Source: Cloacibacillus porcorum | GTDB lineage: Bacteria; Synergistota; Synergistia; Synergistales; Synergistaceae | Direction: 5' to 3' | Length of the DNA: 64,000 nt | Assembly (NCBI RefSeq): GCF_001701045.1 | Contig: NZ_CP016757.1 | Coordinates: forward strand, 2,692,219-2,756,218 | In this document: positions 39,320 through 58,987 of the stretch, one piece after another | Layout of the letters: each line of letters opens with the position of its first letter | Position numbering within the stretch: position 1 is the first letter of the stretch | Program-made: the position numbers and the translations under genes | Notes under the pieces: generated by a model | Database searches by the model: none | What the model was told of the DNA's origin: nothing | Seen by the model: only the letters and a program-made list of their open reading frames with translations

Positions 39320-40483
39320 CTAGAGGTAGTTGGCAGCGACCAGAACCTCTTTGACTTTTTCTTCGTTCTTCTTCGCGAACTTAATGACGGGGCCGGTGCA
39401 GCCCATTGAGGACTCGGCGTAGATACCGGCCTTCCAGAGCGCCTTGACAGCGTTTTCTATCTCAAGGACGTCGACGCCGTGGATCTCTTCGTCTGTCGGC
39501 TCGGCCGCGGGGGCTTTGACATCTTCCTCGGCCGCCGCCTGTTTCGGCTGCATGGCCTCGATGAGATCGTCAAGTCCGGCCGCCTTAGCCGCCGCCAGCT
39601 CCTTCGCCACGATCGCGGGGAGTCCGTTTTTCGCGGCGCTAGCGTTGAGCGAGAGCGCGGAGGCGATGACAGGAGCACCCGAGGCGCGGGAGATGATCGA
39701 GATGACCTTGTTCCAGCCCTCTCCGGCGGAGGGGCCGTAACCCCAACCCATCGCTTCGTAGTTGCCGCCGGTGGTCCAGGCTCCGAAGAGCTTCATAAGG
39801 ACGTTTCCGGTGAGGGTGTCCGTCACACAGACGTCGGCCGCTCCGGCGAGCAGGTCGTTGCCGCGAAGGATCGCGCCGCCGTCTTTTCTGATGCTCTCCG
39901 CGAAGTTAATGCCGTAGCCGTTGTCCTTGAGTTTCTGGAGGGCGCGCAGAACTGTCTGAGCGCCGTCAAGGTTGAGGACGCCGACCGTCGGCTCCGGTAT
40001 GCCGGCAGACTTCGCTACCGCGATGCCGTAGATGGCGTTGCGGAGCATAGCCTCCGTCCTGACCGGGGAGGACGTGCCCGTAGAGGAGGCTACGAAGCAC
40101 GGTTTCCCTTTGCCAGGCGTAAATACCTTTCCTATTGTGGTTACACCGACGGGGAACGGGTAGTGGAGAGCTACCGCACCTTCTATGGTCCCGTCGCTCA
40201 GTGCCTTTTCCATCGCCGCGGATATTTCGTGCTCGTCCGCCGCCGTCTCGACCCAGTTAAGGTCTTCGTAGCCCGCGAGTTTCGGGCCGATGCAGAATAC
40301 TTTCACGCTGGGGTCGTTCTGCATTGCGAGGCGCGCGCCACGGCAGAGCTCTTCCTGGCCGAGCTCGCTGCCGTATGCCATAAGGCCGACTTTGGTCTTT
40401 TTGCCGCCGCCCTCTTTAGCCTCTTCTATTATTTCGCCCAGTATGTCGCCTATCAAGGCCTTTACGGATGCGTTATCTGTCAT
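39320..40483 (-). CDS. grdD: Glycine/sarcosine/betaine reductase component C, alpha subunit
   Basis: 387 residues, related to PlsX. It forms protein C with GrdC, in which Se-carboxymethyl selenide from GrdA becomes acetyl phosphate. Visible family blocks are AYGSELGQEELCRGARLAMQ, ALHYPFPVGVTTIGKV and MGCTGPVI, with Cys362 near the end at about the position of the C-terminal Cys known in clostridial GrdD. The start follows the GrdC stop by 11 bases, so the two are translated from one message. Confidence 0.93.
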   Translation of the reverse strand: MTDNASVKALIGDILGEIIEEAKEGGGKKTKVGLMAYGSELGQEELCRGARLAMQNDPSVKVFCIGPKLAGYEDLNWVETAADEHEISAAMEKALSDGTIEGAVALHYPFPVGVTTIGKVFTPGKGKPCFVASSTGTSSPVRTEAMLRNAIYGIAVAKSAGIPEPTVGVLNLDGAQTVLRALQKLKDNGYGINFAESIRKDGGAILRGNDLLAGAADVCVTDTLTGNVLMKLFGAWTTGGNYEAMGWGYGPSAGEGWNKVISIISRASGAPVIASALSLNASAAKNGLPAIVAKELAAAKAAGLDDLIEAMQPKQAAAEEDVKAPAAEPTDEEIHGVDVLEIENAVKALWKAGIYAESSMGCTGPVIKFAKKNEEKVKEVLVAANYL

Positions 40484-40494
40484 TGTTTTTCCCC

Positions 40495-42027
40495 TTACTT
40501 TTTGAGGCTTGCGGCAAGTTCTCCGAGGCTCTCAAGGATGAGTTCGCGGATCTCTTCTTTGCTCACTGTGGCTTCCGCCTGCTTGGGCTGCGGCTTCTCG
40601 ATGAGGAACGAGGCGCCGTCGGCCAGGTTGGTCAGACGACCAAGGAAGAGACTGCCCTTACCGATGATCATCGCGCGGGTCATCTTGCCGGCGTTGATGG
40701 CGTCGGCGGCGTGCCCCATGAACGGCACTCCGGAGGGAATATGTCCCTGCGTATGGACGAAGCCTGTCATACCATGCTCTTTTGTGAACTTCACCATGTC
40801 GGCCTTTTCGATGGCCTTCTTCATCACCGCGAGGGCCGCGATCATCTTGAAGTTCGCCGTCGGCACGTCGCCCGCGCCAGCGGGAAGGGTGATCTCGGGG
40901 TTGTGGAGCTCCGGTGAGAATTTATCCACATCGGCAAATGTCAGTCCGACCTTCTGAAGCGGCTCGTAGGTGAGGACGGAGGTGACGGTCTGCGGCGAAG
41001 CGCCCGCGCCGACAGTATGCTTGCCGATCGCGTCTAGGCGGATCACAGGCAGGGTGCCGTCGTCGGGAACGATGAGGACGCCGAAGGAGCCGATGCAGTT
41101 TTCAAGGGCGGGAAGCTCTTTTTTGACGTGGTCGCGCGCGTTCATGTAAAGCTTGGGAATCGCGCCGCCCGCGATGACCGCGACGTTCTTACGGGTTCCC
41201 GCGGCGACCATCGAAGCGCCGGAGAGAACCGCGTTAACGGGGCCCGCGCAGAAGCCGCGCACGTCGCAGCCGGAGGAGTTCACGCAGCCCGCTATTTCGG
41301 CGATGGCCTTCGCGAAGTTGCCGCCGCCGCGCTGGTTCATGTCGCCGGCCGCCTCTTCCGAACATTCGATGACAAAGTCGATATCCTCGGGCTTCATACC
41401 GCTGTTCTGGATGAGGTGGAGCAGTGAGAGCACGGCGCTCGCCTTGCAGGTGATGTTCACCAGCAGCTCATAGGCGGTGAGGTTCGGGTCGACTTCGTGT
41501 CCCCTTCTCGCGCAGCCGACAACCTTGCCGTCGACATAGAGGGGCAGCGCGCCCGCGGTCTTGACTTCGTTCTCTATCTCAGCCGCGTCGTGGCCTGCCT
41601 CGAGGCGCGCTACGATATCTTCGCGCATCAGGGGGTGTTTGGCGATCTTTTCCTTGACGGCGGCGGAGAAATCCTTATCAAGCCAGACAAGGTCGAATAC
41701 GTCGCAGATGTCGAGGAAGGCGATCGTCTCGTCTTCGGGCATGATCTCGCCGTATTTCCCGAAACGGATCTCCTGCGGCTCAAGGTTCTTGTACCAGGGC
41801 TGGGGACGCGTTTCAAAGTCCTCTATCTCCATGGCGCCGATGTATGTGAGGTTCGGAGCGTAGCTGGCCGCCTCGTGGTAGTTCTGCTGGTATTTGGGAA
41901 GTTCTTTGAGGAATTCTGAATCGGGGTGCGTCTCCCTCTCTACAAAGGGGGTGTTGCCGTACCAGAGGCCGAGCTCGGGTGTGTGGTTTAATGAATAGGC
42001 TGCCGCTTTGATCGCTGCGTTTGGCAT
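40495..42027 (-). CDS. grdC: Glycine/sarcosine/betaine reductase component C, beta subunit
   Basis: 510 residues, thiolase/KAS III-like. NAAIKAAAYSLNHTPELGLWYGNTP at the start, and SGCDVRGFCAGPVNAVL with a Cys in the centre (about 259-275) as candidate nucleophile. With GrdD it generates and releases acetyl phosphate in glycine-type reduction. The start follows GGAGGAG. Upstream is an AT-rich leader (42060-42180) that should hold the promoter. GrdC/GrdD serve all B components of the cell, so they could work with both grdB-type operons in the window. Confidence 0.95.
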   Translation of the reverse strand: MPNAAIKAAAYSLNHTPELGLWYGNTPFVERETHPDSEFLKELPKYQQNYHEAASYAPNLTYIGAMEIEDFETRPQPWYKNLEPQEIRFGKYGEIMPEDETIAFLDICDVFDLVWLDKDFSAAVKEKIAKHPLMREDIVARLEAGHDAAEIENEVKTAGALPLYVDGKVVGCARRGHEVDPNLTAYELLVNITCKASAVLSLLHLIQNSGMKPEDIDFVIECSEEAAGDMNQRGGGNFAKAIAEIAGCVNSSGCDVRGFCAGPVNAVLSGASMVAAGTRKNVAVIAGGAIPKLYMNARDHVKKELPALENCIGSFGVLIVPDDGTLPVIRLDAIGKHTVGAGASPQTVTSVLTYEPLQKVGLTFADVDKFSPELHNPEITLPAGAGDVPTANFKMIAALAVMKKAIEKADMVKFTKEHGMTGFVHTQGHIPSGVPFMGHAADAINAGKMTRAMIIGKGSLFLGRLTNLADGASFLIEKPQPKQAEATVSKEEIRELILESLGELAASLKK

Positions 42028-46621: not shown

Positions 46622-47851
46622 CTAAACCAGCGTCAGCCTCTCGTGCGCCGCCACATGATCAAGAAGGGCCTCTGAGACCTCTATCGTTTCAAGCTCAAGT
46701 GTATTTTTAATTTTCACGATTTTGAGCCTATTCCTGTCGGCTCCCCTCGCCAGCTGGATCGCGAAGCGCAGCGCCTCATCCTCTGAGTCGGCGGTGATCG
46801 GGATCTTGGAGCCCTCCGGCGACTTGACGGCAAGCGCGTTGGCGTACATCAGAGGCAGGTCCAGCTTATTCAGGACTTTGCGCGTTATCACATCGAAGAT
46901 GCCCACCCCTACGGCGTTGCCGTGAGATTCATCCGTGACGTCGAAAAGTACCATGCGTTTGATCTTCGGCACCGGCAGGACGAACTTTTTGAGCAGGAAA
47001 CTCTTGCCGAGGATATTGGGATCAAAGCCGGAGCCGGAGATGTTTTTGCCGATCTCTTCGACTATCAGGACGTCGATGTCGGGGATCATCAAAGTCGGCA
47101 TATTGTCCTTCGCAATCTTTACCAGCTCTTTTTCCCGTTCTATGATCTTTTCGGCGGGAATCGCCTCGATCATCGCCGTTTCATCGTAGGCGTTTTCGAG
47201 TATCGCCACGCCGAATCCGACGCTGGCGTGTTTCATTATCATCCCGGCGGCCTCGATCAGGATATCGGCGAAATTATCAAAATCCGCCTCGTGCACCGCG
47301 GTACAGCCGACATGGTTGCCGAGCCCGATGACCAGCATCTTGCAGACGCCGCTTTGGATATCCCCGACAAAATCCGTATGCAGCTTGACCCTGTTTATTG
47401 GCACGATAAGATCCGCTCCGAGCGCCGCGGAATCAAAGTAAACGTCTATTCCGCCCGACGTCCTGCCCAGGCGGACCACATCCACGGAGGTGACTATCTC
47501 GACGCCGATATTTTCCTCTGTGATGCCGTAAGAGGCGAGGACTTCGCGCTGGCCCTCCGGCGTTCCGCCGCCGTGGCTGCCCATGGCGGAAATGATAAAC
47601 GGTTCGCCGCCAAGTTCTTTGATCTGCCCGATGACCTCTTTCACGATCTTCGCGAGATTTTTGATGCCCCGGCTGCCAACTGCGACGGCGACCTTCGCGC
47701 CGGGCTTGATCTTCTCTGATATCTCTTTTTTAGTGATCTCCTGTTTTATATGCGCCTCAATGTCCTCAAGCCGCGGTCTGGAAAAACTTTGCCGGACCCT
47801 GTGCATTTGGGGAAGAGGGTAGTTCAGCTGCTCTTCAAGCAATATAGGCAT
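46622..47851 (-). CDS. Nickel-pincer-dependent isomerase, LarA (lactate racemase)-like
   Basis: 409 residues. The N-terminal DUF2088/LarA domain contains VAVGSRG, SAMGSHGGGTPEGQ (likely first catalytic His), RVKLHTDFVGDIQSGVCKML with His and Lys (Lys is the residue that carries the pincer nucleotide in LarA) and GLGNHVG. LarA relatives epimerise 2-hydroxy acids with a nickel pincer cofactor built by LarB, LarC and LarE, none of which are in this window. It is upstream of a D-2-hydroxyacid dehydrogenase, which suggests hydroxyacid uptake and oxidation. The start follows GAGGAGG. Confidence 0.88.
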   Translation of the reverse strand: MPILLEEQLNYPLPQMHRVRQSFSRPRLEDIEAHIKQEITKKEISEKIKPGAKVAVAVGSRGIKNLAKIVKEVIGQIKELGGEPFIISAMGSHGGGTPEGQREVLASYGITEENIGVEIVTSVDVVRLGRTSGGIDVYFDSAALGADLIVPINRVKLHTDFVGDIQSGVCKMLVIGLGNHVGCTAVHEADFDNFADILIEAAGMIMKHASVGFGVAILENAYDETAMIEAIPAEKIIEREKELVKIAKDNMPTLMIPDIDVLIVEEIGKNISGSGFDPNILGKSFLLKKFVLPVPKIKRMVLFDVTDESHGNAVGVGIFDVITRKVLNKLDLPLMYANALAVKSPEGSKIPITADSEDEALRFAIQLARGADRNRLKIVKIKNTLELETIEVSEALLDHVAAHERLTLV

Positions 47852-47947: not shown

Positions 47948-47983
47948 CCGCGTAAACGATGTGCGCCCGATGGGATATATCTG

Positions 47984-48838
47984 TCATGACGGCCCAGATA
48001 TGCGCCATTCAAATTCAGTTGAGGCGGAGGAGAGCTTCGAGTATCGTTTAGGCGATACCCCTTCAAGCTTTGTGAAGGTACTGATAAAGTAACTCGTACT
48101 TAAAAAACCCACCATTTCCCCCGCAAGTTTCACGCTGTAACCGGCGCGCAGGAAATCCTTTGCCTTGAACACCCTCATATTGGTGATGAACGCCCTCAAC
48201 GTGATGCCCGTCACGTTTTTAAAAGTGCGTCACAGCTGTGATTTGCTGATAAAGAACGTGTTGGCGAGATTTTCCAGCGAAAGGTCCTCCGCGTAGTGCT
48301 CCTGAATGTATTGGACGACGGGAAAGATCCTGTCAAGCGGCTTTTTGCTGCGTGGAAGCGAGGCCTCGTTTTTCGTCGACTCATACAGCGCATTGATGTG
48401 TATGAGCATCTCCGCCAGACAGATTTTGCCGTAGACCTCCTTCCCATAGTCGGAACACTCCGGAGAGAGGTAATAATCCAGCTTTTTGATCTGCTTCAGC
48501 AGCCTCTCCAGCTGATCTTCTCCGAGCTGGTAACGGTGATTGAAGTTTCGGTGATCCAGAAAACAGGAGGTGAGGTCAAATCCGGCGGTGGAAACACCGC
48601 TCACCTCATCGGCGTCGAAGTTGATCGCGTAGAACTGATAGGGCTGCTCGTCGCTGGCGCCGTCGCTGCGGTGAAAATCCATGTTGTTCATGACAAAGAG
48701 AGAACCCCGGCGAATGGGATAGACCGCGTTGTTGATGTACATTTTGCCGCCGTCGGAGAGGGTCAGCAATATCTCCATCCCTTTGTGAAAATGCAGATTG
48801 CGCCAATTCCACTGCTGGGTACGAAAAATAATAAACAT
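47984..48838 (-). pseudogene. AraC-family regulator interrupted by one in-frame TGA
   Basis: From ATG 48838 (after GGGAG) the frame encodes an AraC ligand-binding domain (LHFHKGMEILLTL, RRGSLFVMNNMDFH), then the first HTH up to ISKSQL; a TGA (48230-48232) follows and the frame continues as RTFKNVTGITLRAFITNMRVFKAKDFL and the second HTH to 47984. Only one codon is changed. The expected residue is Ser or Cys, and TCA to TGA or TGC to TGA would explain it. Either the gene is newly inactivated or the TGA is decoded. It is upstream of, and probably controlled, the larA-like operon. Confidence 0.85.
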
Positions 48839-49402: not shown

Positions 49403-51361
49403 TTAAGCCTCCAATTCTCCGCCCTGTTCAAAATCAAGGCCCTCTTTTTTATAAGCGAGATAATTGAGCGTCAGGATGATAACGCCTCCGGCCAGTCCCG
49501 CAAAGGTAAGATCCCAACGCGGGCTTAAGGACAGCAGCGAGCAGACAAACAGGACGGCTCTGAGTACAAGATTGATCTTCGCGAACGCATACCCTTCAAT
49601 GACCGCCGCAAAACAGACGACCGCAATCAGACAGCCGACGCTGTTGATGATAATATCCGCCGCAGAGCCGATCATGATCAACCCGGGATTATATACAAAG
49701 GTAGCAAAGACCAGTAACCCGGGAAAGCCGATGCAGAATCCCTTGACCGCCGTCTTCATCGGCCCGGCCTTGGCAATACCGGCCGCGGTGAAGGAGGCGA
49801 TCGCCACCGGCGGTATGATATTTGAAAGCACACCCCAGAAGAGCGCGTACATATGAGCCGCCAAAGCGGGAACGCCCATCTGCATAATGGGGGGAATGAC
49901 CGTTACAACCATGATTATATAGACCGCGGTGGTGGTCAGCCCCATGCCCAATATAACGGCCAGGACAGCCGCCAGAAGCAAAGCCAGCCACAGATGTCCG
50001 CCGGAGATGCTCACGATCTGCGTCCCTAATTTCAGCCCCACACCGGATAAGGTCGAAGAGCTGACGATGATCCCAGCCGCGGCGCAGGCCATCGCCGTCA
50101 CGACCGTCGCCTTGGCCGCCGCTTCACAGACGGAGAGGATATTTTCGGCGCCGGGACGGCTGCTTTTTTTCAGGAAGCTGACGATGAACAGACCTACTAT
50201 CGACCAGAAACAGGCGGTAGTCGCAGTGTAGCCCGAAACCAGGAAATAGACCAAGAGGCCGATGGGGAGCAGCAAATGAGCGCCATTCTTCAGGACGTCT
50301 TTTACGACCGGCATCTCCTCTTTTTTCAGAGGAGGGATTTTTGACTTGCGGGCATGGAAGTCCACGGCGGCGAAAAGCGCGAAATAGTAGCATAGCGCCG
50401 GGATGGCGGCAGCCAGCGCCACCGTTACATAGGAGAGCCCCAGATAGGCGGCGACGACAAAGGCGGTCGCCCCCATGATCGGCGGTGTGAACATACCGCC
50501 GGTGGAGGCGCAGGCTTCAACGCCGCCGGCATATGTACTCTCGTAGCCGACTCTTTTCATCAAGGGGATCGTAAATGTTCCGGTGGTCGTAACATTAGCG
50601 CAGGAGCTGCCGGAGAGCATGCCGAAGAAGGCGCTGCCTACCACCGCCGCCTTGGCGGGACCGCCGACCTTCGCGCCGAAGGCGCCAAGGGCAAGATCAG
50701 TAAAGGTGCGTCCGGTACCGGTCTCCTCCATGAAAGCGCCAAATATTAGGAAGAGGACGACAAAAGAGGCGATCGTGCCGAGGGGCATGCCAAAGATACC
50801 GCCCTCCTGCATATACATGTCCAGAACCAGTGATTTCAAACTTGTGCTCGGTCCGTAGAAAATCCAGAACATCTGTTCGCTGAACAGCGCCTGAAAGGTG
50901 AAGAAGATGGCGATAAGCACCATCGGCAGCCCCAGCGAACGCCGAGTGGCCTCCAGAACCAGAAGCCAAAGGATGACTCCCATACAGATGTCAGCAGTGT
51001 TGGGAGAGATGACCTGCCGTAATTCAAAGGCTTCAACATCCCAAAGATAGTAAATCTCCAACGCCAGACTCAACAGAATACACACGACATCGACAAGCGT
51101 CCATATACTTGGTTTATCGCTCCACGATTGGCGGCTGAGCGGGAAGAAGATGAAGCATAGCACCAATACGCCGGTCAAATGCAGGGATCTGTAAAAATGC
51201 GCCTCGGGATGGCCAAACATTCCGGCGTATAGGTGAAAAGCAACAAAGGCAAAAGATAATCCTACGATAATAAAAGCCAATACCTCTCGCGGGCCAAATT
51301 TTTTAGCCTCAAGCAGACAGCTGATGGCCGTCAGCGGACGAGCTTCTCCATTTTGTATCAT
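49403..51361 (-). CDS. TRAP transporter fused permease (4TM/12TM), TAXI type
   Basis: 652 residues. A DctQ-like N-terminal part precedes the DctM part, with GMLSGSSCANVTTTGTFTIP (about 239-258) and GLTTTAVYIIMVVTVIPP. It is clearly a different paralogue from the two permeases near the window start. It is accompanied by its own TAXI binding protein gene 120 bases upstream, making a complete transporter. The ATG follows AGGAGG. With the neighbouring reductase pair it may bring in that pair's substrate. Confidence 0.93.
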   Translation of the reverse strand: MIQNGEARPLTAISCLLEAKKFGPREVLAFIIVGLSFAFVAFHLYAGMFGHPEAHFYRSLHLTGVLVLCFIFFPLSRQSWSDKPSIWTLVDVVCILLSLALEIYYLWDVEAFELRQVISPNTADICMGVILWLLVLEATRRSLGLPMVLIAIFFTFQALFSEQMFWIFYGPSTSLKSLVLDMYMQEGGIFGMPLGTIASFVVLFLIFGAFMEETGTGRTFTDLALGAFGAKVGGPAKAAVVGSAFFGMLSGSSCANVTTTGTFTIPLMKRVGYESTYAGGVEACASTGGMFTPPIMGATAFVVAAYLGLSYVTVALAAAIPALCYYFALFAAVDFHARKSKIPPLKKEEMPVVKDVLKNGAHLLLPIGLLVYFLVSGYTATTACFWSIVGLFIVSFLKKSSRPGAENILSVCEAAAKATVVTAMACAAAGIIVSSSTLSGVGLKLGTQIVSISGGHLWLALLLAAVLAVILGMGLTTTAVYIIMVVTVIPPIMQMGVPALAAHMYALFWGVLSNIIPPVAIASFTAAGIAKAGPMKTAVKGFCIGFPGLLVFATFVYNPGLIMIGSAADIIINSVGCLIAVVCFAAVIEGYAFAKINLVLRAVLFVCSLLSLSPRWDLTFAGLAGGVIILTLNYLAYKKEGLDFEQGGELEA

Positions 51362-51483: not shown

Positions 51484-52506
51484 CTATTTTACTTTGATAC
51501 CCTTTTCATTAAGATATTTCAGCGCACCGGGGTGAAGAGGTATGTTGGCTACCTTAGGAAGGTCCTGTGGGTTGCAGATTTTGGGCCAGCCCCTCGCCTC
51601 TGTCGCCTTAAAAGAATCCTTATAATAGCCGGATTCATAGATGGTTTTGGTGACGATATAGACGAAATCTTCCGGCAGGTCGGCGTTGCAGACGATGGTG
51701 GTGGGGATGGCGATGGTCTTGACGGGATAATTCTGCTTGTCATAGGTGTTCGGCTGCATGGTGGCTTTCACATAACCGGTCATCGAGGGATCGGCCAGCA
51801 CCTTGTCGGCGTGCGCGTCGTCTATGCTGAGGAATTTAACTCCCGGCTGTATGATAAGGTTGACGATGCTCGGCATAAGTCCGCCATATGTGCCGATAAA
51901 GTCCATATGGCCGTCCTGCATCATCGTAGAGGCGTCATCCCATCCAAGGGACATGACCTCTCCGCCCGCGGCTTTAATGTCGTTGAATGACATGCCGTAG
52001 GCCTTAAGGAGCGCCTCAATCATCATCCTGTCGGTAGACGCGAGCTTGCCCCCGTTTACCTTCTTGTCTTTCAGCTGGCTGAGATCTTTGATATCGGATT
52101 TTTCGGGAACGATCAGCTGCGCAAGCATCAGCTCCTGGGTTCCGACCAGACGCAGATTCGTCAGCGGCTTCTCGTAGGGCGCCATTCCCTTATAGGCCAG
52201 ATACTGGTTCTGCGCGGTGGTCAGCGTCAGCACCATCTCTTTGCCCTCGTGTACGGCGGAGACGTTAAAGGCGCCGCCGGTGGACTGAACGGAGCAGGGA
52301 GCATTTATGCCGGCTTTTTTCAAAGCTGCTTCCAGCTTAGAGGCCAGAACGGCGGAAGCGGGATACCATATGCCTCCAGGGAATCCCGTGCCGATTTTGA
52401 CAAATTTAGGATAAGCCGGCGCGGCGGCTACCGTGCTGCAACTGAACAAAAAAACACTAAGGCAAACAACAAACGCGGCTGCTAAATTAATTTTTGAACG
52501 AAACAT
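51484..52506 (-). CDS. TAXI-family TRAP solute-binding protein
   Basis: 340 residues. Signal peptide 1-29 (ending STVAAA; an LFSC stretch could also act as a lipobox). The mature part begins FVKIGTGFPGGIWYPASAVLASKLE, the TAXI hallmark, with later TTAQNQYLAYKG and SLGWDDAS. TAXI proteins bind carboxylates or amino acids such as glutamate. The start at 52506 follows AAGGAGG. It is separated from the GrdB-type gene by a hairpin, but on the same strand. Confidence 0.94.
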   Translation of the reverse strand: MFRSKINLAAAFVVCLSVFLFSCSTVAAAPAYPKFVKIGTGFPGGIWYPASAVLASKLEAALKKAGINAPCSVQSTGGAFNVSAVHEGKEMVLTLTTAQNQYLAYKGMAPYEKPLTNLRLVGTQELMLAQLIVPEKSDIKDLSQLKDKKVNGGKLASTDRMMIEALLKAYGMSFNDIKAAGGEVMSLGWDDASTMMQDGHMDFIGTYGGLMPSIVNLIIQPGVKFLSIDDAHADKVLADPSMTGYVKATMQPNTYDKQNYPVKTIAIPTTIVCNADLPEDFVYIVTKTIYESGYYKDSFKATEARGWPKICNPQDLPKVANIPLHPGALKYLNEKGIKVK

Positions 52507-52696
52507 ATTTTCTTCCTCCTTATTTTCCCGTACTGCCAGCAAAATTCAAACCTGCTTGCGCCTTTACATAAACGTCGTCTTCCGCCGGCATCTCCCCTTT
52601 CAAAAAATCGCTCCGACGCCTCTCGGTATATCTCTATCCGGCAGCGCCGCCCTACATTTGGGACCGTTATTTTCCCATCTTCACAGCATTGGCGAA

Positions 52697-52733: not shown

Positions 52734-54032
52734 TTAGAAGAAAGTCTGTTCAGTAACGTCCGTGGAGACCGCCTTAAGGGCGCGCTCGACGAGACTTTTC
52801 TGCATCGCCTTCTGCTCCTCGGCTGTAAGCAGGGGATCGCTGAAGGGAGATACAAGCCCGTAACCGGGAACTATACGGTTCGCCCCGGTGACCTTGGATA
52901 CGGAGACAAGGTTTGTGACATGCACTATGGGGAATCCCGCTCTGTCTATCTCTTTTACCATCGTTGCACCGCAACGAGTGCAGCTTCCTCAGGTACTGAC
53001 AAGGACTACGGCGTCGACCGCCTCTTTCTTGAGCGCTTCGGCGATCTCTTTGCCCATCCGGCGGGCGTCCTTGAGGGTGGCCAGGTTGCCGGTGGTCGAG
53101 TAGAGGGTGTTGCAGAGCTCGCCGATCACACCGGCTTTCTCAAATTCCCTGAAGGAAGAGAGCGGAAAGAGAACCTCCGGATTGGCGTTGACAAAGTCGG
53201 TGTTGATGCCGCAGTGGACGCTGTAGAAGTCTCCCTTTACAAGAACATCCTTGCCGGAGACATCGTAGGTCGCCCATATGGAGCAGGTGCCGCCGGGAAT
53301 GCGGTCAGGGTTGCCGAGGGGAACAAGTCCGCCGGTGCTGACGAAGGCGACCTTGGCCTTGCTGAGATCGCCGACCGCCTTGGAGGGAACGACGTTGTCG
53401 CGCGGCTCAATCTTCAGTTCGGTCTCGTAGGGCTGACCTGAGAGTTTGGCAAGAAGCATATCGACGGCGCGGTCGCCGGCGGTCTTCTCCGCAAAGACCT
53501 CTTTTCTGATGCCGTGCGGGAAGTAACCCTCGGCGTCGGCCCAGAGTATCTCTTCGCCGGAGATCATCTTGTTGACGATGCCGGCCATCGCGGCGGCGTC
53601 CTGACGCATCTTGGCTGCGCTAGCGCCGCCCTTCATGATATAGAAGGGTTCCTCTTTGAACATCGCCACGCCGGGGTTTTCCTCGTGCATGCTGGTAACC
53701 GCCTGCACGCCATATTTTTCGTGCGCGAATCTGCATATTTCGCCGCAGCAGACGCCGTAACGTCCGGCGCGGAAGGCGGGTCCGGCGGCCATGATATCGA
53801 ACTCTTTACCTTCAAGGAAGGCGGCGATGCGCTTCAGCGCCTCGTCTTTGTGGCTGGCCATAAAGTTGTCGCCGCAGATGATGGTGTGCGTAACCTCGGC
53901 ATCTTTCAGAGCCGCCTTAAAGGCAAGCGCCGGACCTACAGGCCCCTCTTTGATGACAGGCTCAAAATCAGCCTCGTTTTCTCCGCCGACGCCGCCGAAA
54001 AACTGGTTGGCATAGAATATAATCTTTTTCAT
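52734..54032 (-). CDS. GrdB-type selenoprotein (component B selenoprotein subunit of a glycine/sarcosine/betaine-type reductase), paralogue of unknown substrate
   Basis: 432 residues when the TGA at 52989-52991 (codon 348) is read as selenocysteine. The frame continues GSCTRCGATMVKEIDR, giving the U-x-x-C-x-x-C family site, to the stop at 52734. A 17-base hairpin, TCGTTGC-GGT-GCAACGA (52961-52977), begins 11 bases past the TGA and is identical to that in the other grdB-type gene: a bacterial SECIS candidate. The N-terminal FFGGVGGENEADFEP is typical. It pairs with the GrdE-like gene 30 bases upstream. Substrates known for this family are glycine, sarcosine and betaine; here it is not assigned. 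Confidence 0.9.
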
Positions 54033-54062: not shown

Positions 54063-55391
54063 CTAGTATTCCTTCACGGTCTTGGTCGTGAAACCGGCGC
54101 AGTTGGTGCTGTCCACAATCATGCAGCCGTTTACGATCAGAGAACCGTCCGGGCGCAGGCTGGGGCCGTATTTCTCGTGAGCGGTCCACGCGGCGTGATA
54201 AAAGTCGCGGGTCACGGAGGCGAGATCGCCGATCACGTTCTTCATCGGCGGGAATTCAAAGACGGTGCCGGAGTCGCCGGTGGAGACGATGGCGTCGGCG
54301 ATGGGGTCGAGCATCGATTTGCCGCTGTGCTCCGGAGTAAGTCCCACCGTCTTGATGCCGCGATGTTCCAGCTCGGAGCACATGAAGAAGAAGTCGACGT
54401 CGTAGTTGCTGCCGCCGGCGACGGAGGCGACGATCGCGCCGTCAAGCTTCAGCAGGGAGGCCAGCTCGCCGCCGGCAACCTTTACCGTCTGCTTGAAGTG
54501 GTTGGGCACGTCGACCGCGAAGGGAACAACGCCGACAAAATTGATAGTCTTGCCGTGTTCCTGATAGAGACGTTTGATTATCGGCCAGTTCTGATAAGTA
54601 TAGGTGCAGTAGCCCTCTCCGTAGAGGCCGCCCTGGTTGGTGATCTGTCCGTCGAATACAGCGTTGGGGTGCATAAGGAAGGGCAGCATGTTTTCGCAGT
54701 CGATACCGAAAATTCTCTCGTTAAAGAACTTATCCTTGCCGACCTGAGCCTTGATCTGGAAGAAAAGGGCGACCCTCGGAAGCCCCTTCTTCTCCGCCTC
54801 TTCGGCACCGGGCTCAAGCTCGTAGCATTCCCAGTCTTCCGGCTCCTGGTCTTTCAGCGAAGCGGCCACATAGTCCGCCAGATAATGGGCGGCCATCTTC
54901 AGCGGAGCCTCGTTTCTGAAAGGCTGGTCTAGCTTTGTGGGGTTGACCAGTTCCGCGTATACCACAAGGTTCACCATCTTCGCAAAGATGGAGTGCTCCG
55001 CGCCGGGGCCGCTCATATCAAGCATGCCCTCGGCCGCCTGCGAGTATTTACCGCAGGCGATGACATTGATGCCTTTCATCGCGTAGAGGTCGCCATCGCC
55101 GCAGCTTTCGATCGTCAGACCGCCGGTCACGCCGGGGAAGGTGGCGCGTCCATCGGGACGGAAGCGTGGCTCCAAACCGACCTTGCAGGGCAGAATGCGG
55201 GTCTCGTCACCGGGATGGACAATATATATCTCTATGTTCTTCAGTTCTTTGTCCGGGTCCAGAGAGGCGATAGCTTCACCTTTATTGATTGTGAGCACGC
55301 CGTTTTTGAATGAGGTCTTTTCACCAAATACGATGTCCTTAACATGAAAATTACCTATTCTCAGCTTTTTCGTATGTTCCAAACTCTTCAC
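54063..55391 (-). CDS. GrdE/GrdG/GrdI-type reductase subunit lacking the Asn-Cys processing site
   Basis: 442 residues, the usual size of the GrdE-type proprotein. Shared blocks with the GrdE at 57692-58987: EGMLDMSGPGAEHSIFAKMVN, DCENMLPFLMHPNA and NWPIIKRLYQEHGK. Where GrdE has GNC (Asn244-Cys245), this protein has TNQGG (about 251-255), with no Asn-Cys. In GrdE the Cys forms the pyruvoyl group after cleavage. It might be cleaved elsewhere (a TNC is at about 429-431, 12 residues from the end), or not at all. It is the first gene of the unit with the GrdB-type gene. Confidence 0.85.
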   Translation of the reverse strand: MKSLEHTKKLRIGNFHVKDIVFGEKTSFKNGVLTINKGEAIASLDPDKELKNIEIYIVHPGDETRILPCKVGLEPRFRPDGRATFPGVTGGLTIESCGDGDLYAMKGINVIACGKYSQAAEGMLDMSGPGAEHSIFAKMVNLVVYAELVNPTKLDQPFRNEAPLKMAAHYLADYVAASLKDQEPEDWECYELEPGAEEAEKKGLPRVALFFQIKAQVGKDKFFNERIFGIDCENMLPFLMHPNAVFDGQITNQGGLYGEGYCTYTYQNWPIIKRLYQEHGKTINFVGVVPFAVDVPNHFKQTVKVAGGELASLLKLDGAIVASVAGGSNYDVDFFFMCSELEHRGIKTVGLTPEHSGKSMLDPIADAIVSTGDSGTVFEFPPMKNVIGDLASVTRDFYHAAWTAHEKYGPSLRPDGSLIVNGCMIVDSTNCAGFTTKTVKEY

Positions 55392-56369: not shown

Positions 56370-57677
56370 TTAAAATACTGTCTGCTCCGATATCGGCGTC
56401 TGGAGGGCCTTCATGGCCTTGTCCAGGATCGCGCGGCGGATCTGCTTCTCTTCCTCGGCGCTCTTGCTGATGTCTCCGAGGGGATAGGGGATGGCGACCG
56501 CGGGAACTATGCGGTTCGCGCCAACCGTCTGCGAGATCGGTACGATCGTGCAGATGTGTACCACGGGCATTCCAAAGGCTTCGATCGCTTTGACCATCGT
56601 TGCACCGCAACGAGTGCAGGTTCCTCAAGTGGAGGTGAGGATCACGGCGTCAACTCCGTCTTTCTTGAGCTGCTCACCAATGGCGGTGCCGAACTTCTTC
56701 GCGTTGGCAATCGATGTTCCATTGCCGACGGTCGTGAAGAAGTATCTGTAGAGCTTTTTGAAGACGCCCTCTTTCTCCATCTCGCGGAGCACGTCGACGG
56801 GAAGCACTCTGTTGGGGTCAGTGTTGGCATAGGTCGGGTCGTAACCGCCGTGCGCCGTCGCGTAATGCTCGCCGTCAGCCGTCTGTACACCTTCGATATC
56901 GTAGGTGCCGAACTTCATCGCGCTGGAGGCCTCGATGTGGTCGGGGTTGCCTTTCGGGACGATGCCGCCGGAGGTGACGAGCGCGATCGTCGCGTTTTTA
57001 AGGTCTTTAATCGCCTCGCCGGGGGCTACGCGGTCAAAGCTGGGCATCGGATATTCGGTGGTGAACTCTTCGCCCTTGAGCTTCTTGACGAGCATCTCCA
57101 CCGCGCGGTCCGCGCCGGGTCTGTCCTGGAAGAAGTTGACGCGCACGCCGCGGGTCATGTAACCGGCCTCTTCGGGCGAGCCGGGGTTGCCGTTCGTCTC
57201 AAGGACTTTGAGGACGAGCTTCGCCATCGCGGGAACGGCCGTCTTGATACCGCGCGCGTTGTCGGCTGTCGGGACGATGAATACCGACTTCTTGAACATA
57301 TCCGCGCCGGGGTTCTCCTCGTACATACCGGAGACGGCGGGTATGCCGAGCTTCTTCTGTACCGCGTCGGCTACGCCGCCGGCGGCGGTGCCGTAACGTC
57401 CGGCGTTGAATGCGGGGCCGGTGACGACCGCGTCGGGCTGGAAGGCGGAGATGAGCTTGAGTATCTCTTCGGTCGCCGATTCCATGTTCTCCGCGTAGTA
57501 GCCGTCGCCGCAGATTACCGTGCCGACGACTTCGGCGGCGTCGCCGAGTTCGTGGGCAAGGGCCATGCCGGGTCCGACTACGCCGGGGCGTGACTCGGGC
57601 TTGGTGTCAGCCTTCTCTTCTCCGCCGATACCGGCAAAGAACTGATTTATGTAGTGTACGATCCTCTTCTTTGTCAT
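56370..57677 (-). CDS. grdB: Glycine reductase component B selenoprotein subunit
   Basis: 435 residues with TGA at 56625-56627 as selenocysteine 351, close to its known position near 350. Sequence around it: STUGTCTRCGATMVK. A SECIS candidate hairpin TCGTTGC-GGT-GCAACGA lies at 56597-56613. The protein activates glycine together with GrdE and passes the carboxymethyl group to GrdA. It is the last gene of grdX-grdE-grdB, followed by a terminator. The glycine assignment rests on the glycine riboswitch upstream of grdX and the normal processing site in GrdE; sarcosine or betaine forms cannot be fully excluded. Confidence 0.93.
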
Positions 57678-57691
57678 TGTCTTTCGTCCTC

Positions 57692-58987
57692 CTACCAGGT
57701 TTTGGCGCTGAGGGGGTTAAAGCCCAGCTCGCATGTCGCGCCTGTGATAGCCTGCAGCTCAACCTCTATCGACCCGTCGGCTCTGAGCGAACCGTCGAAG
57801 CCACCGGCTATAACGTCCGTGTAGTCCGTAAATCCGATCAGTTTTTCCTGCGGGGGCAGTACGACGATCATGTTCGCGTTGCCCGCCGTTACCACCGCGT
57901 CGGCCTCTTTCGTGGCGTCGGCGAGCGACTGGCTCGCGCCGTCGCGGCCCGCGTATTCGTCGGTGATGAGCGCCGTTCTGATACCGGCCTGCTCCGCCTT
58001 GCGGCAGTTCATGATAAGGTCGGCGTCGGGATTGCCGAAGCCCTCTTCGCTGATTACAACGCCGTCGACGCCGAGCATCGAGGCGAGCTTCACCGCGTAC
58101 GAAGAGCTTCTCTGCTTGTCCATCAGCGTGACGTTCTCGTTTGTGATGATTACGCCGATGAAGTTGATGTCTTTTCCGTGGCGCTCATAGAGGCTGCGGA
58201 TGACGGGGTTGTTCTGGTGGACATAGGTGCTGTTCTTGTCGCATGCGGAGACGCAGTTGCCGGAGACGATCGCGCAGTCCATTGTCTCATTGGGGTGGAT
58301 CAGCGTGGGGATAATCTTCTTCGCGTCCACGCCGTAGACGTAGGTGTCATGAAGAAGTCCCTGAGTCTGGAGCATGTAGATGTAGGCAACCTTCGGGAGT
58401 CCGGGATAGGCTTTCATGGCCTCCGCGAACGAGGGAAGCTCGTAGGGCTTTGTCTCATCTACGGCTGCGCCAGCCTTCCAGGCGGCCTCCGCGACGTAGA
58501 GCGCGGCGCGGAATCCGGCAAGGCGGCAGGCTTTCTCATATTCGTGGGGCTCGATGCCTTCGACGGGCTCGAACACGAGCACGGCGTTCATCGTCTTTGA
58601 GAAGGGGGTGTATTTCGCGCCCTCGCCGCTCATGTCGACGATGCCTTCCTGGAATCCGACGATGCGTCCGCAGGTGACGACGGCCGCGCCGTCAAGGACG
58701 AAGGTCTTTCCACTGCCAACGGTGTCAACGCCGCTGAGCATGCCGGGGAATACCTGACCAACGCCCTCCGTCTTGTAACGGGGCTGGATGGCGTCTTTGA
58801 CAGGGCAGATGCGGACCGATTCGCCGGGACGCGCGAGGTCGGCGTTCAGGGTCTTAAAATGCTCTGTGTCCGAAGCCGCTGCGAGGAACTCTTCTTTGTT
58901 GATCTGAAGGGTGCCGTCGGCAAGAAGGGCGGTCTTGTCGCCCCATGCGATGTTCTTAACTTTTGCCTTCTGCAGTTCGAGTTTCAT
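57692..58987 (-). CDS. grdE: Glycine reductase component B proprotein (pyruvoyl precursor)
   Basis: 431 residues. Cleavage between Asn244 and Cys245 in SGNCVSACDK would give two subunits of about 26 and 20 kDa, with the Cys becoming a pyruvoyl group that binds the glycine amine as Schiff base. The C-terminal GATCELGFNPLSAKTW is typical. The start follows AAGGAGG. It lies between grdX and grdB, as in clostridial operons but without grdA or thioredoxin genes. Confidence 0.94.
   Translation of the reverse strand: MKLELQKAKVKNIAWGDKTALLADGTLQINKEEFLAAASDTEHFKTLNADLARPGESVRICPVKDAIQPRYKTEGVGQVFPGMLSGVDTVGSGKTFVLDGAAVVTCGRIVGFQEGIVDMSGEGAKYTPFSKTMNAVLVFEPVEGIEPHEYEKACRLAGFRAALYVAEAAWKAGAAVDETKPYELPSFAEAMKAYPGLPKVAYIYMLQTQGLLHDTYVYGVDAKKIIPTLIHPNETMDCAIVSGNCVSACDKNSTYVHQNNPVIRSLYERHGKDINFIGVIITNENVTLMDKQRSSSYAVKLASMLGVDGVVISEEGFGNPDADLIMNCRKAEQAGIRTALITDEYAGRDGASQSLADATKEADAVVTAGNANMIVVLPPQEKLIGFTDYTDVIAGGFDGSLRADGSIEVELQAITGATCELGFNPLSAKTW

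Follow-up and report, generated by a model that had tools for sequence, protein, structure and literature searches.

In the established scheme of glycine reductase, a carboxymethyl group passes via GrdA to GrdC/D and is released as acetyl phosphate. The alpha subunit of its component B, GrdE, is a proprotein: in C. difficile, mass spectrometry has proven its cleavage at an Asn-Cys pair, which yields a pyruvoyl group (PMC9908766). The role of this pyruvoyl group is debated, a putative carbonyl in the partner subunit GrdB having been credited with substrate binding (PMC9908766). An uncleaved GrdE-type subunit with a selenocysteine-containing partner has also been published, namely FarE/FarB of Cloacibacillus porcorum MFA1; Leong et al. 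2023 (PMC10838667) described FarE as no proprotein and as 'similar to grdI'. Since GrdI-type proteins of betaine reductases read SGSFMP at the site in our alignment, and given the statement of Leong et al. on FarE and grdI, loss of the cleavage site is already described for betaine- and fluoroacetate-type relatives and holds no novelty in itself.

The locus presented here lies in a 64,000-nucleotide stretch of the Cloacibacillus porcorum chromosome (the window), which also carries a canonical GrdE/GrdB pair that served for comparison. We read its GrdE-type gene, with a probability of about 0.74, as encoding an uncleaved, pyruvoyl-free component B alpha subunit for an acetate derivative unable to form a Schiff base, from a lineage joined to GrdI. 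The features on which the comparison rests are the following.

54063..55391, minus strand: GrdE/G/I-type (component B alpha) subunit gene, assigned by PF09338, alignment and tree
54618..54644, minus strand: loop aligned with the cleavage loop, residues 250-258, ITNQGGLYG, with Gly254-Gly255 for Asn-Cys (from the alignments; coordinates calculated from residue numbers)
52734..54032, minus strand: partner GrdB/H-type selenoprotein, 432 aa, STUGSCTRC, 30 bp downstream of 54063-55391 (PF07355, 439.5 bits)
52951..52988, minus strand: SECIS of the partner gene (Rfam RF01990 SECIS_4, 52.9 bits, gathering cut-off 38, E 3.3e-10)
57692..58987, minus strand: canonical GrdE proprotein, SGN244-C245VSAC, for comparison (PF09338, 671 bits)
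56370..57677, minus strand: canonical GrdB selenoprotein, for comparison (TIGR01917, 644 bits vs cut-off 602)
56587-56624: SECIS of the canonical GrdB gene (RF01990, 59.8 bits)

The minus-strand gene 54063-55391 begins with GTG and encodes 442 aa. Its product belongs to the Gly_reductase superfamily (346.6 bits against a PF09338 gathering cut-off of 22.2) and is 34% identical to the canonical GrdE of 57692-58987, with which it shares the PF09338/PF07355 pairing, the alpha-then-beta operon order and the predicted order of secondary-structure elements; GrdE, in contrast, is cleaved at Asn-Cys to give the pyruvoyl group, and the 442-aa protein has no such site. In the pairwise alignment N252-Q-G254-G255-L-Y-G stands opposite S242-G-N244-C245-V-S-A-C, and the same register recurs in multiple alignments of 74 and then 138 homologues. 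This register is safe because both flanks show strong conservation (HPN...D.. before the site, TY..QN.P.I..LY..HGK.INF after it), and the initial annotation, which had placed Gly-Gly (254-255) opposite Asn244-Cys245, was correct on this point. Neither the pairwise nor the multiple alignments put a Cys or Ser at the cleavage position. An alternative alignment with a Cys there is excluded by the conserved flanks, which fix the register, and by the lack of any recurrent Cys or Ser in the loop among the related proteins described below; Cys262 (GYCTY) is absent from the termite orthologue. The sole N-C pair of the protein, N430-C431 near the C-terminus, was considered as another cleavage site and ruled out, as it is not kept there in members of its clade (described below) with less than about 70% identity. 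AlphaFold models of the 442-aa protein and the canonical GrdE (pLDDT 87.5 and 85.0) have an identical order of secondary-structure elements, with the cleavage-site region forming a loop between two conserved segments. The PDB holds no sequence relative of the protein, and a fold search with its confident model (pLDDT 87.5) gave no convincing match to solved structures, the best having an E-value of 0.03. On these alignments, the protein would remain unprocessed and would lack the pyruvoyl group.

The adjacent selenoprotein gene has all the features expected of a component B partner: one in-frame TGA (ORF 52734-54032, STUGSCTRC), the UxxCxxC motif and a SECIS element. The TGA and UxxCxxC are kept in every complete partner within the clade described below, and the hairpin that follows the TGA is nearly invariant at the nucleotide level across 68 distinct grdB stretches. 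The proposal that the partner keeps its selenocysteine is thereby confirmed, and with the Sec partner intact the complex is unlikely to be dead, as had also been suggested. That the gene is a decaying, non-functional paralogue, an idea to which the loss of a residue catalytic in relatives lends some appeal, is scarcely credible: orthologues at 94, 85, 74, 66 and about 58% identity are found in both Synergistota and Firmicutes and always adjoin a GrdB-type gene with TGA and UxxCxxC, the frames are open throughout and the SECIS is intact.

How far the loss extends was gauged in 82 homologues dereplicated at 85% identity, a sample drawn around the query and hence no unbiased census. Asn-Cys is absent from 50 of them; the site reads Asn-Cys in 32 and Ser-Phe in 28, with other residues in the remainder. 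The initial annotation had considered that the enzyme works without the GrdE-type pyruvoyl, which is probably so, and had treated the loss as unusual, which finds no support, as GrdI and FarE also lack the site; betaine subunits of the GrdI type, reading SGSFMP, are just the kind of known relatives without the site that it had named as counting against its claim. Within the genome itself (3,585,187 bases, a single contig) eight genes match PF09338, and the Asn-Cys pair is kept in two (L001, L002). No Cys occupies the site in L003, in gene 54063-55391 (L006) or in L007, which is FarE (880.4 bits, over the NF053623 cut-off of 675) within a farACEB-like operon; L003/L010 is a GrdI-type paralogue without Asn-Cys that has a BCCT gene adjoining. 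L004 and L005 have loop cysteines and no Asn-Cys pair. Where GrdE has SGNCVSAC, L004/L011 and L005/L012 carry the inserted loops GSHNTVCSDK and GAHCTVCSDK, respectively, and a proline racemase family gene lies near L004. In L008 the loop is shortened and there is no Asn-Cys pair; this GrdE-type gene (L008/L014) is distant from all named families and adjoins a DctM-type TRAP transporter.

The 442-aa protein does not reach the NCBIfam cut-off of either GrdG or FarE, scoring 217.3 bits with the sarcosine GrdG model NF040793 (curated cut-off 780) and 115.2 bits with the fluoroacetate FarE model NF053623 (curated cut-off 675). FarE further differs in a loop deletion and FarB in the lack of a conserved CxxC, and the far operon, unlike the present locus, contains an MFS transporter and a radical SAM gene. 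A FarE-like loop deletion (RYWE...PNYYLQN) was also seen in two loci from Clostridium sp. H5 and a Lachnospiraceae MAG (L171, L172), and fluoroacetate-type reductases may accordingly occur in Firmicutes, beyond the reported Synergistota. D-proline reductase PrdA/PrdB is a more remote comparison: homology to PrdA covers part of the protein (41.7 bits, far under the PrdA cut-off of 700), and PrdA is longer.

When the cleavage-site columns are left out of the alignment, the resulting tree puts the gene into a clade that numbers 11 members and has 100/100 support. This clade and the GrdI (SGSFMP) group are joined at 100/100, and every Asn-Cys protein falls outside their union; the clade is drawn as sister to the GrdI group, the latter having only 79/83 support itself. 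Identity of the 442-aa protein to GrdI-type proteins is about 34-41%, and the two share the missing Asn-Cys pair and a Sec partner with UxxCxxC. They differ at the loop, which reads TNQGGLYG rather than SGSFMP in the present protein. Within the clade the loops are QGGLYG, MGGLYG, FGGLYG, FQGMCG (in the member from Ca. Formimonas warabiya), QFGLMG, GMGLAG, GEGLAG and DTLFFA (in the most distant member). Gly-Gly is common to the orthologues at 94, 85 and 74% identity, and the notion that it marks a clade holds for four near orthologues only, other residues being found in the wider clade. Gly-Gly is rejected as a functional motif, since the loop varies inside the clade; it is one local form of a variable loop, as would be expected where there is no cleavage to preserve. 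Clade members above 50% identity were found in 5 of 188 Synergistota genomes and in a few Firmicutes, a same-genus genome carrying the 94% orthologue and Ca. Formimonas warabiya a member 66% identical to the 442-aa protein; among 392 Lachnospirales genomes, at the E-value used, a clear member appeared in one, already known. This distribution is patchy across the genomes surveyed, and horizontal transfer of the clade genes is likely.

The same loop bears on the idea that a carbonyl cofactor, pyruvoyl or other, still forms from another residue of the protein or in GrdB (e.g. the Ser of STUG). Earlier work has proposed a carbonyl in GrdB and suggested formylglycine in STUG (PMC10838667, PMC9908766); we nevertheless consider this quite improbable here, as the loop has no conserved Cys or Ser across the clade, the N-C pair at the C-terminal end is not conserved at that place, and no maturase gene is seen in the operon, whereas the far operon has its radical SAM gene.

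The surroundings of the pair, and in particular its transporters, separate the clade from the betaine reductases. Downstream of the partner gene lie the following.

51484..52542, minus strand: TAXI-family TRAP solute-binding protein (TIGR02122, 165 bits)
49403..51361, minus strand: TRAP transporter fused permease (TIGR02123, 577 bits)
47981..48838, minus strand: AraC-family regulator with a candidate selenocysteine at codon 203 (in-frame TGA 48230-48232)
46622..47851, minus strand: LarA-like nickel-pincer isomerase, group 22 (NF052515, 509.8 bits vs cut-off 400)
39320..42027, minus strand: GrdD-type and GrdC-type genes for the shared acetyl-phosphate-forming component C (ORFs named by reading)

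The two TRAP genes stand beside the grdE-grdB pair in the orthologous loci L075, L076 and L077 and, at lower identity, in L095, so that a TAXI-TRAP system adjoins the clade pair in five genomes (that of the window, L075, L076/L093, L077/L094 and L095), Formimonas included; sodium symporters adjoin it in L078, L097, L098 and L099. A BCCT transporter (the query was confirmed as PF02028) accompanies 25 of 28 GrdI-type loci with adequate flanks; none was found at the clade loci, and near 54063-55391 the TAXI-TRAP genes stand in its place. Other neighbours (creatininase-family, xanthine-dehydrogenase-like, PreA-like and amidohydrolase genes) were considered as guides to the substrate and rejected, as none recurs between members. 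In one Lachnospiraceae MAG (L096, 1-12616) two clade pairs, each of a grdE-like and a Sec grdB-like gene, are separated by about 8 kb that include a creatininase-family gene scoring below the curated creatininase cut-off; a search of openly searchable papers for creatine and glycine reductase together found nothing.

These neighbourhoods weigh on the proposal that the pair represents another betaine reductase (GrdI/GrdH), with glycine betaine as its substrate and a loop that has drifted. The union with GrdI has full support in the tree, and betaine_GrdH is the best NCBIfam match of the partner 52734-54032, albeit at 554 bits against a cut-off of 775. The Formimonas clade member is probably also the gene named GrdI in its genome paper (PMC6778437), judging from locus-tag order and positions, a name that came from clustering with betaine reductases among few references. 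Against this stand the lack of BCCT at every clade locus, the absence of the GrdI-group SGSFMP motif and the separate GrdI-type gene with BCCT in the same genome, as well as the physiology of Ca. Formimonas warabiya, which with glycine betaine and H2 forms monomethylamine and no trimethylamine (PMC8163858) and in which the reductase induced on betaine is of the sarcosine type (PMC9768040). Taken together, the transporter neighbourhoods and the Formimonas results indicate that the substrate is probably something other than glycine betaine, and the betaine proposal is improbable.

Under the preferred reading of a pyruvoyl-free alpha subunit, the uncleaved protein would pair with the GrdB-type selenoprotein 52734-54032 and help to bind X-CH2-COO- or a close analogue, probably imported in C. 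porcorum by the adjacent TAXI-TRAP transporter. The GrdB selenolate would displace the leaving group X, and the carboxymethyl group would then move to GrdA and on to GrdC/D for release as acetyl phosphate. A GrdA gene with one in-frame TGA is present in the genome, and in tblastn searches the GrdC/GrdD-type genes at 39320-42027 match a GrdC/GrdD-like pair in locus L095 at 48-49% identity. No Schiff base would be needed if X were neither a primary nor a secondary amine, e.g. a quaternary or acylated nitrogen or a non-nitrogen group. Because the role of the pyruvoyl group is debated, it is chemically plausible that an enzyme could dispense with it, above all where the substrate forms no Schiff base; the same uncertainty over its role in GrdE (PMC9908766) makes the Schiff-base argument itself a weak one.

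The AraC-family gene, separated by about 560 bp from the TRAP gene upstream of it, is arguably of more interest than the missing cleavage site. Its TGA, at codon 203, falls within the helix-turn-helix region (SKSQL-TGA-RTFKNVTGITL) and recurs at the same codon in the other same-genus genome (G137, in the L075 orthologue), and a Synergistes MAG has Cys there; TGA-bearing forms occur in 2 of 188 Synergistota genomes. The two TGA-containing genes are 71% identical, with dN/dS of 0.12 (0.180/1.552) before the TGA and 0.10 (0.174/1.666) after it, so that the part downstream of the TGA is under equal purifying selection. The TGA is followed by a hairpin of 7 base pairs with G at the second loop position, its loop starting 19 nt after the TGA (18 in the grdB gene of the window); the Cys orthologue has no such hairpin. 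Synonymous resampling gave stems of such length at a suitable position in 0.46% of cases, the folding energy alone being unexceptional (10.7%), and an Rfam scan reported no SECIS in the gene 47981-48838. We consider the gene a candidate selenocysteine-containing transcription factor, none of such kind having been found in the open literature. Its link to the reductase is one of position, and it may belong instead with the LarA gene. A role for LarA group 22 in the reductase pathway is doubtful in turn, given relatives at 57-73% identity in Synergistota without a nearby grd pair. Several times among loci L194-L202, LarA group 22 genes lie beside aconitase-X-like, hydroxyacid-dehydrogenase-like and CoA-ligase-like genes, which suggests an undescribed hydroxyacid pathway around this group. 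A broader reading, which we offer tentatively and think rather unlikely, would make the clade a reductase for a substrate class new to glycine-reductase-type enzymes with an adjacent, possibly controlling, Sec-containing AraC factor; if the AraC factor does contain selenocysteine and controls the pair, the selenoenzyme operon would be turned on only when selenium is available.

Loss of the pyruvoyl site is common in the family and here follows a lineage rather than one odd enzyme, which corrects a tempting inference from the single sequence. Annotation of clade members as betaine (trimethylamine-forming) reductases may be mistaken, and under the preferred reading the clade would offer a natural test of the need for a pyruvoyl group in C-X cleavage and would mark an additional substrate for the selenium-dependent reductive fermentations of anaerobes from the gut and the environment, among them those represented by one Clostridium and one Lachnospiraceae genome.
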